This document shows positions 50,887-64,000 of a stretch of DNA of 64,000 nucleotides, piece by piece (the stretch's first letter is position 1; every line of letters starts with the position of its first letter). Location of the stretch: contig NZ_JAPDMS010000005.1 of assembly GCF_026319365.1 (NCBI RefSeq), positions 158,178 through 222,177 on the forward strand, written 5' to 3'. The stretch is from Methylophaga sp. OBS1. GTDB taxonomy: Bacteria > Pseudomonadota > Gammaproteobacteria > Nitrosococcales > Methylophagaceae. The notes under the pieces are model-generated. The model worked only from the letters and a program-made list of their open reading frames with translations. It was not told the origin of the DNA and did no database searches. A program made the translations under genes and the position numbers.

Positions 50887-51203
50887 TGGCGATTAAAGCA
50901 AGAGACAGAATACGCGCCAAGCTTAAAGAAGAGCTCACCACTGTCAGGGTTCTGCTTGCCCATCCAATGCATACTGGTCGTGGTGAAAACGAGCAGGGGG
51001 AACTGATTCCGGCGGAATTTATTCAGGATATTCGCTGCTGGCGAAATGGCACGGAGGTATTAACTATCAAGTGCGGTACGGCGACAGCACGAAATCCTTA
51101 TTTTTCATTTCAACTGGCGGGCGGGGCCCTTGGCGATAAAATCATGGTTCGCTGGGTCGATAATCTCGGCGCTAAAGGGATTGCCGAGACCACGCTGTCA
51201 TGA
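50886..51203 (+). CDS. soxZ: SoxZ-like partner subunit
   Basis: 105 residues, no signal peptide of its own (SoxZ is co-exported with SoxY). The stretch VRVLLAHPMHTGRGENEQGELIPAEFIQDI is diagnostic of SoxZ, and the rest forms its immunoglobulin-like fold. The ATG overlaps the soxY stop codon; its own stop overlaps the next gene by 4 nt (ATGA). Confidence 0.92.
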   Translation: MAIKARDRIRAKLKEELTTVRVLLAHPMHTGRGENEQGELIPAEFIQDIRCWRNGTEVLTIKCGTATARNPYFSFQLAGGALGDKIMVRWVDNLGAKGIAETTLS

Positions 51204-52912
51204 GCCTCAAGCTCAAGGTTAACCTTTTCTTCACCATTCTCTTGCTGGCCTCACTGATGGCCGGAACCGGCGTGTTGATTTCCAATGCCCGTCAGTCGGT
51301 TGAGAAAGAAGTTCAGGACACCATGGATGCTGCTGCCAGACTGATTACCCTGACCCTGGCCGACCGCCCCCTCAACAGGGAACTGGGTATCAATGAGCAG
51401 ATGCATGAAATGATCAAGGCGATGAGTGAGATTCGCAGCCTTCATATTCTGCTGTTTGATACCCAGGGCCTGCTTTATGAGGGGGAGCCCGAACCAACCC
51501 TGGAAGTTGAGCCACCCGATTGGTTCGTCAAAATTTTGTTTCCTGAAATCACGCCTTTAAGTAAACGCTTTGGCAATGGCCACATGGTGATTTATGCCGC
51601 CCCCATGCAGGAAATCAGCGACCGCTGGCAGGATATCCGCAGCATCATTGGCCTGGGCATGGTCGTGTTTGTTTTTGTGAGTATTTTTTTGTACTGGGGT
51701 GTCGATTGGTTTTTGCGCCCCCTGCAGAGATTGCTACAGGCGCTGGCAGCGTTTGAAAGAGGGGATCTGCATTCCCGGCTTCCCAGTTTTACCTTGCCGG
51801 AAATGAACCAGATCAGCCAGACATTCAACCGGATGGGGCAGGCATTAGAGTTAAGCTCAGCCGAAAATCAGCGCCTGGCCATGCTGGTCAGGCAGTCTGG
51901 TGATGCCATTCTGGCTCTCGATCATGCGGGTAATATTACTTTCTGTAACTCCACGGCTGAACGCCTGTTCGCCAAGCAGACACCCGTATTGAAGGGCGAA
52001 GCGCTGGCTAATCTCGGTTTCGAGCATCAGCGTCAGGCCATCGCCAGTGTGCTGGAAAACTGTGAGACCATCGAAAATATGGAAACCACGTTGACGCGGC
52101 CCGATGGAGAGCAGTTGTCATTGTTGATGTCCAGCGTGCCGCTGTATGACAACAATCAGCAAATCATTGGTCTGGTTTGTACTTTGCGTGACATCACCGA
52201 ATTAAAACAGGCGGAAATGGCGCGTAACCAGTTGCGTGAAACCCGTTTACTGACTAAACACATGGATGAGGTACAGGAAGCGGAACGTCGTCATCTGGCA
52301 CGTGAACTCCACGACGAACTGGGACAGTGTCTTACCGCTATCAAGACCGATGCGGTGTTGATCCGTAATCGTACACAGGATAGCGAGCCTCGAATTCATG
52401 GCAGTGCTCAGGCCATTATCGATACCGCCAGTCATATCTATGATGTCGTTCATAATATGATCACCCGGCTGCGACCCAGTCCACTGGACGATTTGGGACT
52501 GGTTCCGACACTGGAACAGAGTGTTGCCAGTTGGCGTGAGCGAGAGCCGGATATCAATTTTGTCTTGCAAACCAGTGGCAAACTCGACAATCTCAATGAA
52601 GCTATGAATATGACCGTTTTCAGAGTGGTGCAGGAAGCCATCACCAATGCGGTACGTCATGCACAGGCCAGCCAAATCAACGTCCGGATCCATGCCGAAC
52701 AGGACGGTAACAATGATGCGTTGACGATTAATATCAGTGACAATGGCAAAGGTATGGAGGTCAAGGACTTTCATTCAGATGTTGACTTCGGCCTGTTAGG
52801 AATGCGGGAACGGGTGCAGAGTATGGGCGGTGAGTTCACTTTGTTAAGCCAGCCTGGTGACGGTGTGGTGATTAAAATTAAGATTCCTCTGGGAGCGGAC
52901 AGACTGATATGA
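51200..52912 (+). CDS. NarX-type sensor histidine kinase with PAS domain
   Basis: 570 residues. Membrane helix about 8-28, periplasmic part, second helix about 150-172, HAMP (about 172-225), PAS (about 230-345), HisKA_3 (about 360-430) with the phospho-His in RHLARELHDELGQCLTAI, and HATPase (about 465-568). Couples to the NarL-type regulator downstream. Directly overlapping soxZ (ATGA), so its signal may concern sulfur or the same physiology. The input ligand is unknown. Confidence 0.9.
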   Translation: MSLKLKVNLFFTILLLASLMAGTGVLISNARQSVEKEVQDTMDAAARLITLTLADRPLNRELGINEQMHEMIKAMSEIRSLHILLFDTQGLLYEGEPEPTLEVEPPDWFVKILFPEITPLSKRFGNGHMVIYAAPMQEISDRWQDIRSIIGLGMVVFVFVSIFLYWGVDWFLRPLQRLLQALAAFERGDLHSRLPSFTLPEMNQISQTFNRMGQALELSSAENQRLAMLVRQSGDAILALDHAGNITFCNSTAERLFAKQTPVLKGEALANLGFEHQRQAIASVLENCETIENMETTLTRPDGEQLSLLMSSVPLYDNNQQIIGLVCTLRDITELKQAEMARNQLRETRLLTKHMDEVQEAERRHLARELHDELGQCLTAIKTDAVLIRNRTQDSEPRIHGSAQAIIDTASHIYDVVHNMITRLRPSPLDDLGLVPTLEQSVASWREREPDINFVLQTSGKLDNLNEAMNMTVFRVVQEAITNAVRHAQASQINVRIHAEQDGNNDALTINISDNGKGMEVKDFHSDVDFGLLGMRERVQSMGGEFTLLSQPGDGVVIKIKIPLGADRLI

Positions 52913-53553
52913 GCCTAAACAAAACAAAAGTCTTGTTGGTGGATGACCACGAACTGGTGCGGGCTGGTTTTCGTCGTTTACTGGAAGATGGTGACAAATT
53001 CACTGTGGTCGCGGAATCCGGCAGTGGCGAGCAGGCTGTTCAGGATTTTAGTAAGCACCACCCGGATGTTGTGGTCATGGACATTTCGATGCCCGGTATC
53101 GGCGGTGTTGGTGCCATTGAACGCATCATTGCCAGAGAACCGAATGCCAGAATTCTGGTACTGAGTGTGCATGAGGACAGCGTATTCACAACCCGCGCTA
53201 TGCAAGCAGGTGCTTTAGGGTTTATTCCCAAACGCAGTGCGCCGGAAGAAATGTTAAAAGCGGTGGATATGGTGGCGCAGGGGAAGACCTGTATCGCCCC
53301 TGAAATCGCGCAGCAATTGGCCATGCAGAAACTGACCGGTTCTGAAAATCCGCTGGATGTACTAAGCCAGCGAGAATTCGAGGTGTTTCGATTACTCGCC
53401 GAGGGTAAAACCGTCAATGATATTGCTGATATCCTCAGTCTTAGCCCCAAAACAGTGGGGACACACCACACCAACATCAAGCAAAAACTGAACGTGTCCA
53501 ACTCAGCTGAACTGGCACGGCTGGCGATACGCAGTGGTCTGGTCGATGCCTGA
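52909..53553 (+). CDS. NarL/LuxR-type response regulator 1
   Basis: 214 residues. Receiver with phospho-Asp in DVVVMDISMPGIGG near residue 56 and a LuxR HTH (about 147-210; LSQREFEVFRLLAEGKTVNDIADIL). Overlaps the kinase stop by 4 nt. Last gene of bepA-soxY-soxZ-kinase-regulator. Its HTH helix differs from those of the three regulators near xoxF. Confidence 0.92.
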   Translation: MSLNKTKVLLVDDHELVRAGFRRLLEDGDKFTVVAESGSGEQAVQDFSKHHPDVVVMDISMPGIGGVGAIERIIAREPNARILVLSVHEDSVFTTRAMQAGALGFIPKRSAPEEMLKAVDMVAQGKTCIAPEIAQQLAMQKLTGSENPLDVLSQREFEVFRLLAEGKTVNDIADILSLSPKTVGTHHTNIKQKLNVSNSAELARLAIRSGLVDA

Positions 53554-53560
53554 TCTTGAT

Positions 53561-53599
53561 TCAGGAAAATCCTGAGTCACAGAGAGTAAATTCCTCTCT
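53561..53599 (+). other. Two adjacent hairpins before pqqA
   Basis: TCAGGA-AAA-TCCTGA (53561-53575) and AGAGAG-N7-CTCTCT (53581-53599). The first lies 8 nt after the response-regulator stop and could be a weak terminator. Neither is followed by a long T run, so read-through into pqqA is possible. Confidence 0.5.
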
Positions 53600-62947: not shown

Positions 62948-63044
62948 GACTTTTTTCTCATTTTTTTAACTTTGTATGCGAGCTGTTATATCAGGCTTTT
63001 CCGTGATGTCTCGGGAATTATTCCCAAGATACCGATGAGTTTGG

Positions 63045-63079
63045 CCTAATGAAACTAGGGTAAAAGCGGAATAGAGTTG
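63045..63079 (+). promoter_or_regulatory. xoxF3 promoter region: inverted repeat and conserved block
   Basis: CCTA-N7-TAGG (63045-63059) overlaps the start of the shared 35-nt block, ending CGGAATAGAGTTG. CGGAATAG ends 72 bp before the ATG. A further repeat, GGGAA-TTA-TTCCC, lies at about 63013-63025. Confidence 0.5.
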
Positions 63080-63146
63080 CCGCTGTGGTGAAGAACACTC
63101 TGGCGTCTCACCATGCTGATAACAAACCAAAATAGAGGTTACTCTA

Positions 63147-64000
63147 ATGAAGCTGAAAACATTATCACTGGCGATGATGTCACTGGCTGTCGCAGGCGCG
63201 GCACAAGCTGACGAATTGCTGACTATGCAGAAGAACGCAAACAACTGGGTGATGCCAGCGGGTAACTATTCCAATACCCGTTATTCAGAGTTGACACAAA
63301 TCAATAAAGATAACGTCAAAGATCTGAACATGGCCTGGTCTTTCTCCACCGGTGTACTGCGTGGTCACGAAGGTAACTCACTGGTCATCGACGGCACCAT
63401 GTATGTTCACACGCCTTTCCCGAACATCGTGTTCGCGCTGGATCTGAACAACGACGGCGCCATCAAATGGAAGTACGAGCCTAAGCAAAACTACGACGAA
63501 ACTGTACCAGTCATGTGCTGTGACACCGTTAACCGTGGTCTGTCTTATGCCGACGGCAAAATCTTCCTGAACCAGGCTGATACCACCCTGGTCGCGCTGA
63601 ATGCGGCTGACGGCAGCGTTGTCTGGTCTGACAAACGTGACGATCCAAAAGTCGGTGCCACCAGCACAGCGGCAGCACACGTCTTTGATGACACCATCAT
63701 CGTCGGTATTTCAGGTGGTGAGTTCGGTGTCCGTGGTTACGTTCAAGCCTACGATCTCGACGGTAACGTGAAGTACAAAGCGTACAGCACCGGTCCTGAC
63801 GAGGAAATGCTGGTTGACCCTCAAAAAACCACTTCCATGTTGAAACCGGTTGGCAAAGATTCTTCTTTGAAAACCTGGCAGGGTGATCAGTGGAAAATCG
63901 GTGGTGGTACGACCTGGGGTTGGTATTCTTACGATCCTGACCTGAACCTGTTCTACTACGGTAACGGTAACCCCTCAACCTGGAACCCGGTTCAACGTCC
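63147..64000 (+). CDS. xoxF: Lanthanide-type methanol dehydrogenase XoxF, copy 3, 3' end outside window
   Basis: 284 codons visible, starting at ATG with a signal peptide identical to copy 2 (ending AQA). The CC pair at residues 124-125 is present, and the sequence follows copies 1 and 2 to GNGNPSTWNPVQRP, where the window ends just before the Asp-Tyr-Asp site. Long stretches are base-for-base the same as copy 2 (for example about 63677-63800), while others follow copy 1. AGAGG precedes the start. Lanthanide use is inferred from its paralogues, since the deciding residue is not in view. Confidence 0.93.
   Translation, partial: MKLKTLSLAMMSLAVAGAAQADELLTMQKNANNWVMPAGNYSNTRYSELTQINKDNVKDLNMAWSFSTGVLRGHEGNSLVIDGTMYVHTPFPNIVFALDLNNDGAIKWKYEPKQNYDETVPVMCCDTVNRGLSYADGKIFLNQADTTLVALNAADGSVVWSDKRDDPKVGATSTAAAHVFDDTIIVGISGGEFGVRGYVQAYDLDGNVKYKAYSTGPDEEMLVDPQKTTSMLKPVGKDSSLKTWQGDQWKIGGGTTWGWYSYDPDLNLFYYGNGNPSTWNPVQR

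Follow-up and report, generated by a model that had tools for sequence, protein, structure and literature searches.

A tandem array of lanthanide-type xoxF genes in Methylophaga, interleaved with NarL-type regulators and divergent sensor kinases

A tandem array of xoxF genes, which belong to the methanol dehydrogenases, lies at the end of a 64,000-nucleotide stretch of the Methylophaga sp. OBS1 genome (contig NZ_JAPDMS010000005.1, positions 158,178 to 222,177; here, the window). On the forward strand, the gene order is soxY-soxZ-HK0-RR0-pqqA-HK1-RR1-xoxF1-RR2-xoxF2-HK3-RR3-xoxF3, with HK denoting sensor kinases and RR response regulators. The window end cuts xoxF3; the end of the array falls beyond it, and comparisons of XoxF3 cover the first 284 residues. 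The original prediction held that each XoxF copy has its own two-component module, so that near-identical enzymes would be switched by different signals, such as different lanthanides or methanol levels. Its reading of the gene order was borne out, with the expected open reading frames and domains in place and the HK0-RR0 pair next to soxYZ; pqqA, between RR0 and HK1, is an addition to its gene list. A kinase-regulator pair precedes xoxF1 and xoxF3, but xoxF2 follows a lone regulator with no adjacent kinase.

XoxF1 (56057..57835) and XoxF2 (58887..60665) score 732 and 721 bits against TIGR03075, above its 480-bit cut-off, and XoxF1 has the pyrroloquinoline quinone (PQQ) Pfam domain. Both read DEWDYDG. 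The solved XoxF structures nearest to XoxF2 read DEWDFDG (6oc5) and DEWDYDG (6dam), compared with DEWDYAG in 4tqo, while XoxF3 (63147..64000, the 5' 284 codons) is cut before this site. The aspartate that DEWDYD has in place of the alanine of DEWDYA is the extra one of the lanthanide site. By family and motif, XoxF1 and XoxF2 are lanthanide-type methanol dehydrogenases, predicted to bind a lanthanide in the active site and to oxidize methanol.

The enzymes are very similar, as had been claimed. Amino acid identity is 91.4% between XoxF1 and XoxF2 and, over 284 residues, 89.1% between XoxF1 and XoxF3 and 95.8% between XoxF2 and XoxF3. The closest xoxF found outside the window is from Methylophaga as well (93% to M. 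sulfidovorans). Along their length, xoxF1 and xoxF2 form a mosaic, with an identity of 97% in some parts and of 73% near nucleotides 450-700. The likeness extends into the 3' flanks, where 81 of the first 90 downstream bases agree and each gene is followed by a terminator-like hairpin (57882..57915 and 60712..60745).

Four regulators, RR0 (52909..53553), RR1 (55243..55887), the orphan RR2 (58087..58722) and RR3 (62306..62947), exceed the Pfam cut-offs for both Response_reg and GerE and are thus NarL/FixJ-type response regulators. RR1, RR2 and RR3 have in common the recognition helix KTVANYQT, again as predicted, and RR0 has KTVGTHHT. The receivers of the window regulators retain the aspartates and the lysine of the receiver motif. 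In its first receiver helix RR2 is like RR1 and unlike RR3, which leads us to guess that HK1 serves RR2. In relatives (loci L154, L155 and L156), the arrays are followed at a distance of about 15 kb by another conserved kinase-regulator pair, with the helix KTVANNLT.

The three kinases, HK0 (51200..52912), HK1 (53903..55246) and HK3 (60992..62305), all contain HisKA_3 and HATPase_c; HAMP was recognized in HK0 and HK1 only and PAS in HK0 only. They do differ in input, HK1 and HK3 being 23% identical in the input region and 37% in the core. The LapD_MoxY_N domain scores 22.5 bits in HK1, which we tentatively assign to the MoxY/MxaY type, and 19.8 bits in HK0, both under the 25-bit cut-off. HK3 gives no such match, and 9 of the 28 members of its alignment match at an E value of 0.001. 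Structure models of HK1 and HK3 have a similar order of helices and strands at low confidence (for HK3, mean pLDDT 73 and pTM 0.39). In a fold search with the HK3 model, the best 50 of 915 matches were mostly kinase domains, with none informative on the sensor.

Sensor divergence is most marked in HK3. HK1 and its four orthologues are 55-60% identical in the sensor and 64-67% in the core, while HK3 and its two orthologues, from M. aminisulfidivorans (G003) and M. sulfidovorans (G001), are 33% and 53-54% identical; the values against kinases of single-module loci are 25-30% and 42-47%. The HK1 family is wide, reaching Thiodiazotropha and Methylotenera among the best 120 of 1170 matches. Among the matches listed for HK3, at least 21 relatives stand at 45% identity or more and the next at 34%. 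A conserved glutamate sits just before the second membrane helix in both kinases: E149 of HK1 is invariant in 26 HK1-type rows, and E145 of HK3 is the sole invariant sensor residue across 28 HK3-type rows. Judging by number and place only, these residues may correspond to E147 of MxaY, whose change to glycine yields a constitutive kinase in Methylomicrobium (Methylotuvimicrobium) buryatense 5GB1C (PMC5018670).

Each xoxF copy has its own promoter, and the three promoters have a common design. A rigid 31-base-pair (bp) element, TRRTGATTNNNRGG-N7-GGMATARAGT, was matched upstream of xoxF1 (55967..55997), xoxF2 (58792..58822) and xoxF3 (63047..63077). We scored this pattern on 50 xoxF- or mxaF-type upstream regions, comprising all distinct ones of 100 bases or more. 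Twenty-seven, all from this locus type, had 0 to 4 mismatches; the other 23, from dispersed xoxF and mxaF-type genes, had at least 6. In 10 genomes, the near-identical pattern (at most 2 mismatches, a threshold that misses several known promoters) gave 15 matches, 12 of them before xoxF genes of this locus type and 3 elsewhere, and the reversed control pattern gave none.

Putative operators, likewise found as pattern matches, accompany the element. Inward repeats of the form TCC-N10..12-GGA start at -47/-46, -25 and -3 from it, that is, in 22-bp steps. In the window they occur at -25 before xoxF1 (TCC-N11-GGA, 55941..55959), at -47 and -3 before xoxF2 (58744..58762, and 58788..58807 with TCC-N12-GGA), and at -47 before xoxF3, there with an overlapping GGGAA...TTCCC (62999..63026 together). 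The inward repeat is present in 18 of the 27 promoters (0.84 expected from shuffles), an outward GGGA...TCC pair also in 18 (1.03 expected), and one or both in 24. Across species, the promoter sub-type tracks the regulator type. An inverted repeat GGA...CTCCTAT upstream of HK1 (53832..53849), spotted by eye, may be an autoregulatory operator. A further pattern, TTCGGGAA-N4-TTCCCGAA, had no match in the window.

The dispersed xoxF (L149), whose neighbours are a gene for a SoxYZ-like carrier and one of MoxJ type, is without the element, and GGGAA-N4-TTCCC occurs in 11 of 11 such regions. In 10 genomes, the longer form TYGGGAA-N4-TTCCCRA occurs at 11 sites, with palindromic sites counted once and not per strand; 8 of them precede this dispersed xoxF, the site there is the sole one in seven genomes, and the control gave one site (in G011). 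In the form TCGGGAA-N4-TTCCCGA (L149 8650-8870 and ten like regions), this palindrome is nearly unique per genome and adjoins no regulator gene.

We searched 24 genomes in the genus of M. aminisulfidivorans, 22 of which had an XoxF-type match at an E value of 1e-100. Tandem xoxF genes occur in at least 5 of the 24, a lower bound, as many contigs end inside xoxF: four copies in G001, G003 and G029, three in G014 and two in G030. The four-copy genomes read HK0-RR0-HK1-RR1-X-HK3-RR3-X-Xc-RR2-X, where X is a xoxF and Xc a divergent type of it. G014 reads soxYZ-HK0-RR0-HK1-RR1-X-Xc-X on a 3.1-Mb contig, and G030 soxYZ-HK0-RR0-HK1-RR1-X-RR2-X on a 600-kb contig, matching the window as far as xoxF2. 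Module order thus varies, being 1-2-3 in the window versus 1-3-c-2 in the four-copy strains. A single-module form, soxYZ-HK0-RR0-HK-RR-X, is found in G002, G018, G016, G011, G015 and G024, the contigs of the last two ending in the xoxF. The nearest genome at this locus appears to be G025 (RR0 98%, SoxY and HK0 86% identical), whose contig stops in the first xoxF. In a separate survey of 80 xoxF loci, several of them short, in which matches to the window's own regulators at an E value of 1e-8 were counted, 4 had a window-like kinase or regulator within 1.5 kb of xoxF. All four were titled Methylophaga; among the 70 differently titled loci, none had one within that distance.

These arrangements do not fit a dedicated module for every enzyme. 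The second and third xoxF genes of G003, G001 and G029 are direct neighbours that no regulator separates, and in G014 three xoxF genes stand behind a single HK1-RR1 pair.

Phylogenetic analysis separates the history of the regulators from that of the enzymes. In the regulator tree, each module type forms one clade that unites the window with other species: RR0 (support 100/99, 13 rows), RR1 (95/97, 6 rows), RR2 (100/100, 7 rows) and RR3 (100/99, 3 rows). The kinase tree agrees (HK0 100/99, 15 rows; HK1 100/96; HK3 99/95). Together with the identities above, this supports old, distinct regulator and kinase lines. The xoxF DNA tree, built from 35 rows of full-length or cut genes with the Xc copies of other length excluded, in several cases instead groups copies by genome: the window three (97/95), two from G030 (100/99), three from G016, and two each from G011 and G002, while the third array copy of G014 joins that genome's own dispersed xoxF (95/99). 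Clades of same-position copies were rejected by the approximately unbiased test (first position, p 1.3e-42; second type, 6.3e-90; third type, 3.1e-54). The window copies are unresolved on the protein tree. Their synonymous divergence (dS) is 0.36 between xoxF1 and xoxF2 and 0.21 between xoxF2 and xoxF3; against the G030 copies at the same positions it is 1.09 and 0.77. Xc is a fourth type, about 83% identical and in a clade of its own (100/98; L134 7106-8899, L135, L136 and L137).

The incongruence of the two trees rules out simple co-duplication of regulator and enzyme, a check suggested with the original prediction. The natural reading of these sequence comparisons is partial concerted evolution of xoxF, through gene conversion or unequal crossing-over. 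In one single-module genome, G002 (L140 and L141), the two xoxF loci look exchanged downstream of xoxF: the copy with the array-type upstream region leads to the NtrC-type gene that belongs to the dispersed locus, and the copy with the dispersed-type upstream region leads to pqqA. This may reflect a chimeric assembly or recombination within xoxF.

Enzyme specialization by array position, for example for different lanthanides, likewise found no support among the main copies. With the divergent Xc excluded and XoxF3 counted over its first 284 residues, 0 of 592 positions set the first-position XoxFs (6) apart from the other main copies (10), although position 455 comes close. No diagnostic residue emerged in any of 216 choices of one copy per genome, a test that cannot rank the choices. 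The main copies lack position-linked conserved differences, and the sensors and regulators represent old, distinct lines, so any difference between the copies should lie in their control.

The array of G014 bears on how separate that control is. Upstream of its last array xoxF, a 152-bp stretch shares 93% identity with the RR2-type promoter found in G003, and the 392-bp spacer is without RR2 (comparison spacers between these genomes are 90% identical for the RR1-type promoter, and 84% and 82% for two others). The best G014 match to RR2 is its RR1, at 56%, and its regulator matches include no RR3. Either RR1 or another regulator would read the RR2-type promoter in this strain, or the loss of RR2 is recent. 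Retention of the promoter suggests that the regulators read each other's sites. The common recognition helix and the common element and half-sites point the same way, and for these three reasons we consider cross-regulation likely.

Our best reading, which we rate a little above even, is that interchangeable enzymes are governed by divergent MxaY/MoxY-like sensors through partly cross-wired NarL-type activators. The locus would be a cassette array of lanthanide-type xoxF genes, each with its own promoter of common design and with MxaB/MoxX-type regulators between the copies. HK1 and HK3 would be membrane kinases with MoxY-like periplasmic domains that phosphorylate RR1 and RR3 upon their signals, and the orphan RR2 would probably be served by HK1. 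Phosphorylated regulators would bind the TCC-N11-GGA sites that step upstream of the element at 22-bp intervals and switch the adjacent xoxF; they would also act on one another's promoters, since helix and half-sites are common. Recombination would keep the enzymes alike as interchangeable outputs, and the array would sum several sensor inputs into one enzyme pool sited by PQQ cofactor genes. Gene order, common promoter design, divergent sensors, incongruent trees and the RR2-type promoter without RR2 are read directly from the DNA; from them we infer the phosphotransfer pairs, binding, activation rather than repression, and the signals.

Several observations weigh against this reading. The kinase branches are long, and the tree analysis gave a warning that long branches meet. 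First copies of G001, G003, G029 and G014 group together (100/100), as do second copies of three genomes (99/95), and the four-copy clade holds the divergent Xc (83%). Within G003, dS between copies is 0.38-0.39, about the same as the G003-G001 orthologue dS of 0.37-0.39 (the third-copy pair was dropped as an artefact of unequal lengths), so homogenization there has been slight or old. The promoters that supplied the patterns of element and operators are the same in which these were then counted, and related rows are not independent. A scan for the element in the window only (at most 3 mismatches) gave 3 matches, a number also reached by 3 of 100 shuffles, and three Xc promoters carry the element with none of the operators. 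A looser palindrome, YTCCYA-N6-TRGGAR, proved uninformative in the 10 genomes, with 8 sites in 6 of them, not one of which adjoins an array xoxF, and at least as many sites in the control (10 per strand). In M. buryatense, finally, the regulator beside mxaY is dispensable and MxaY lowers xoxF transcription (PMC5018670), so adjacency and sign of control are not safe guides.

In the alternative closest to the original prediction, which we consider improbable, each regulator drives only the xoxF behind it and the copies respond to signals of their own, for example different lanthanides or methanol levels. A regulator does stand directly before its xoxF and promoter, promoter sub-type goes with regulator type, and the sensors differ strongly. 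The common recognition helix, the common half-sites at the same register and the promoter that G014 retains without RR2 argue otherwise, as does the absence of a kinase for xoxF2 and of any regulator for some copies in relatives. Published expression results from the genus are divided. In biofilm cultures of M. nitratireducenticrescens GP59, two of the four xoxF genes fell 2- to 9-fold (PMC6697039), indicating that paralogues in the genus can respond differently, and all four rose together in another biofilm study (PMC12530212). Strict one-sensor-one-enzyme wiring is the less likely reading, and we see no support for fully insulated switches or for one lanthanide per enzyme.

Next, and also doubtful, is a process of dosage and birth-and-death. 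XoxF output would be increased by tandem duplication, cassettes would be gained and lost through recombination between like copies, and the regulators, all answering to one signal, would be carried along redundantly. It would fit a copy number of 1 to 4 at the same locus in one genus, the differing module order between species, the homogenized copies of several genomes and the drifted RR2 receiver of the four-copy strains (48% to window RR2). Pure redundancy would not predict that regulator, kinase and promoter types persist as separate orthologous lines, or that the window receivers keep their aspartates and lysine. It is hardly credible that mxa, pqq, sox or other genes are the main targets and that the regulators only happen to stand beside xoxF: soxYZ and pqqA do share the cluster, and MxaY/MxaB act on mxa in M. 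buryatense (PMC5018670), but the 31-bp element (12 of 15 sites) and the related palindrome (8 of 11) are nearly confined to array and dispersed xoxF, respectively.

Genes of sox and pqq type accompany the array. The SoxY-like carrier (50317..50886) matches Pfam SoxY at 88 bits (cut-off 28.4) and TIGR04488 at 112 bits, below the 125-bit cut-off, and SoxZ (50877..51203) matches Pfam SoxZ at 96 bits; nearby, on the reverse strand, lies a DsrE2 sulfur carrier (48144-48665; NF047629, 254 bits, cut-off 210). The 23-residue PQQ precursor peptide encoded by pqqA (53683..53754) scores 50.7 bits against TIGR02107 (cut-off 20, E value 1e-13). A cyclic di-GMP riboswitch adjoins a pqqA in GP59 (PMC12530212), and we therefore searched Rfam with positions 50200-64000; no match was found up to an E value of 1, so there is no riboswitch at pqqA by this search, and at gathering scores the whole window gave two tRNAs and nothing else. 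All 5 tandem arrays of the relatives have a pqqA no more than about 0.6 kb beyond the end of their last xoxF, followed by pqqB, C, D and E in G003 (by family match) and by pqqB and E in G030. In the twelve Methylophaga-type genomes searched, the number of pqqA-type matches per genome ranges from 2 to 7.

Two-component control of methanol dehydrogenases is of a known kind. MxaY/MxaB of M. buryatense likewise pairs a kinase with a response regulator in the control of methanol dehydrogenase genes, and the glutamates of HK1 and HK3 lie near the place of MxaY E147. That organism has one xoxF and one mxaFI, with an orphan MxaB elsewhere and with mxa raised and xoxF lowered, whereas the window has several xoxF genes with interleaved regulators (PMC5018670). 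MoxXYZ/MxaXYZ of Paracoccus denitrificans also places a regulator and kinase by a methanol dehydrogenase gene, but in one copy, beside mxaF and with divergent transcription (as told in PMC5018670). PedS2/PedR2 of Pseudomonas putida controls a lanthanide-dependent PQQ alcohol dehydrogenase, but inversely switches one lanthanide and one calcium enzyme, with no array of like enzymes in the account available (PMC6115532). Methylophaga thiooxydans likewise has several xoxF, two of them near pqqBCDE, but the portion of that report available is silent on interposed regulators, a shared promoter or an array (PMC6548844). No description of the present array was found in the freely available text searched, including PMC5018670, PMC6548844, PMC5934484, PMC6697039 and PMC12530212, subscription papers not being covered. 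As far as searched, the regulator-enzyme incongruence and the common promoter code are new.

More tentatively, the locus may be a modular sensory array, in which recombination homogenizes the enzyme and shuffles regulator-promoter cassettes. Periplasmic sensors for methanol, lanthanide, redox or sulfur signals could thereby be added or swapped over one unchanged enzyme, with the sensors diversifying and a shared operator code summing their inputs. This locus offers a direct test of why methylotrophs retain several xoxF genes of such close similarity. The promoter element and its putative operators are concrete targets for footprinting, and the fast-diverging HK3-type sensor, in which a single glutamate is invariant, could help to show what lanthanide-switch kinases sense.

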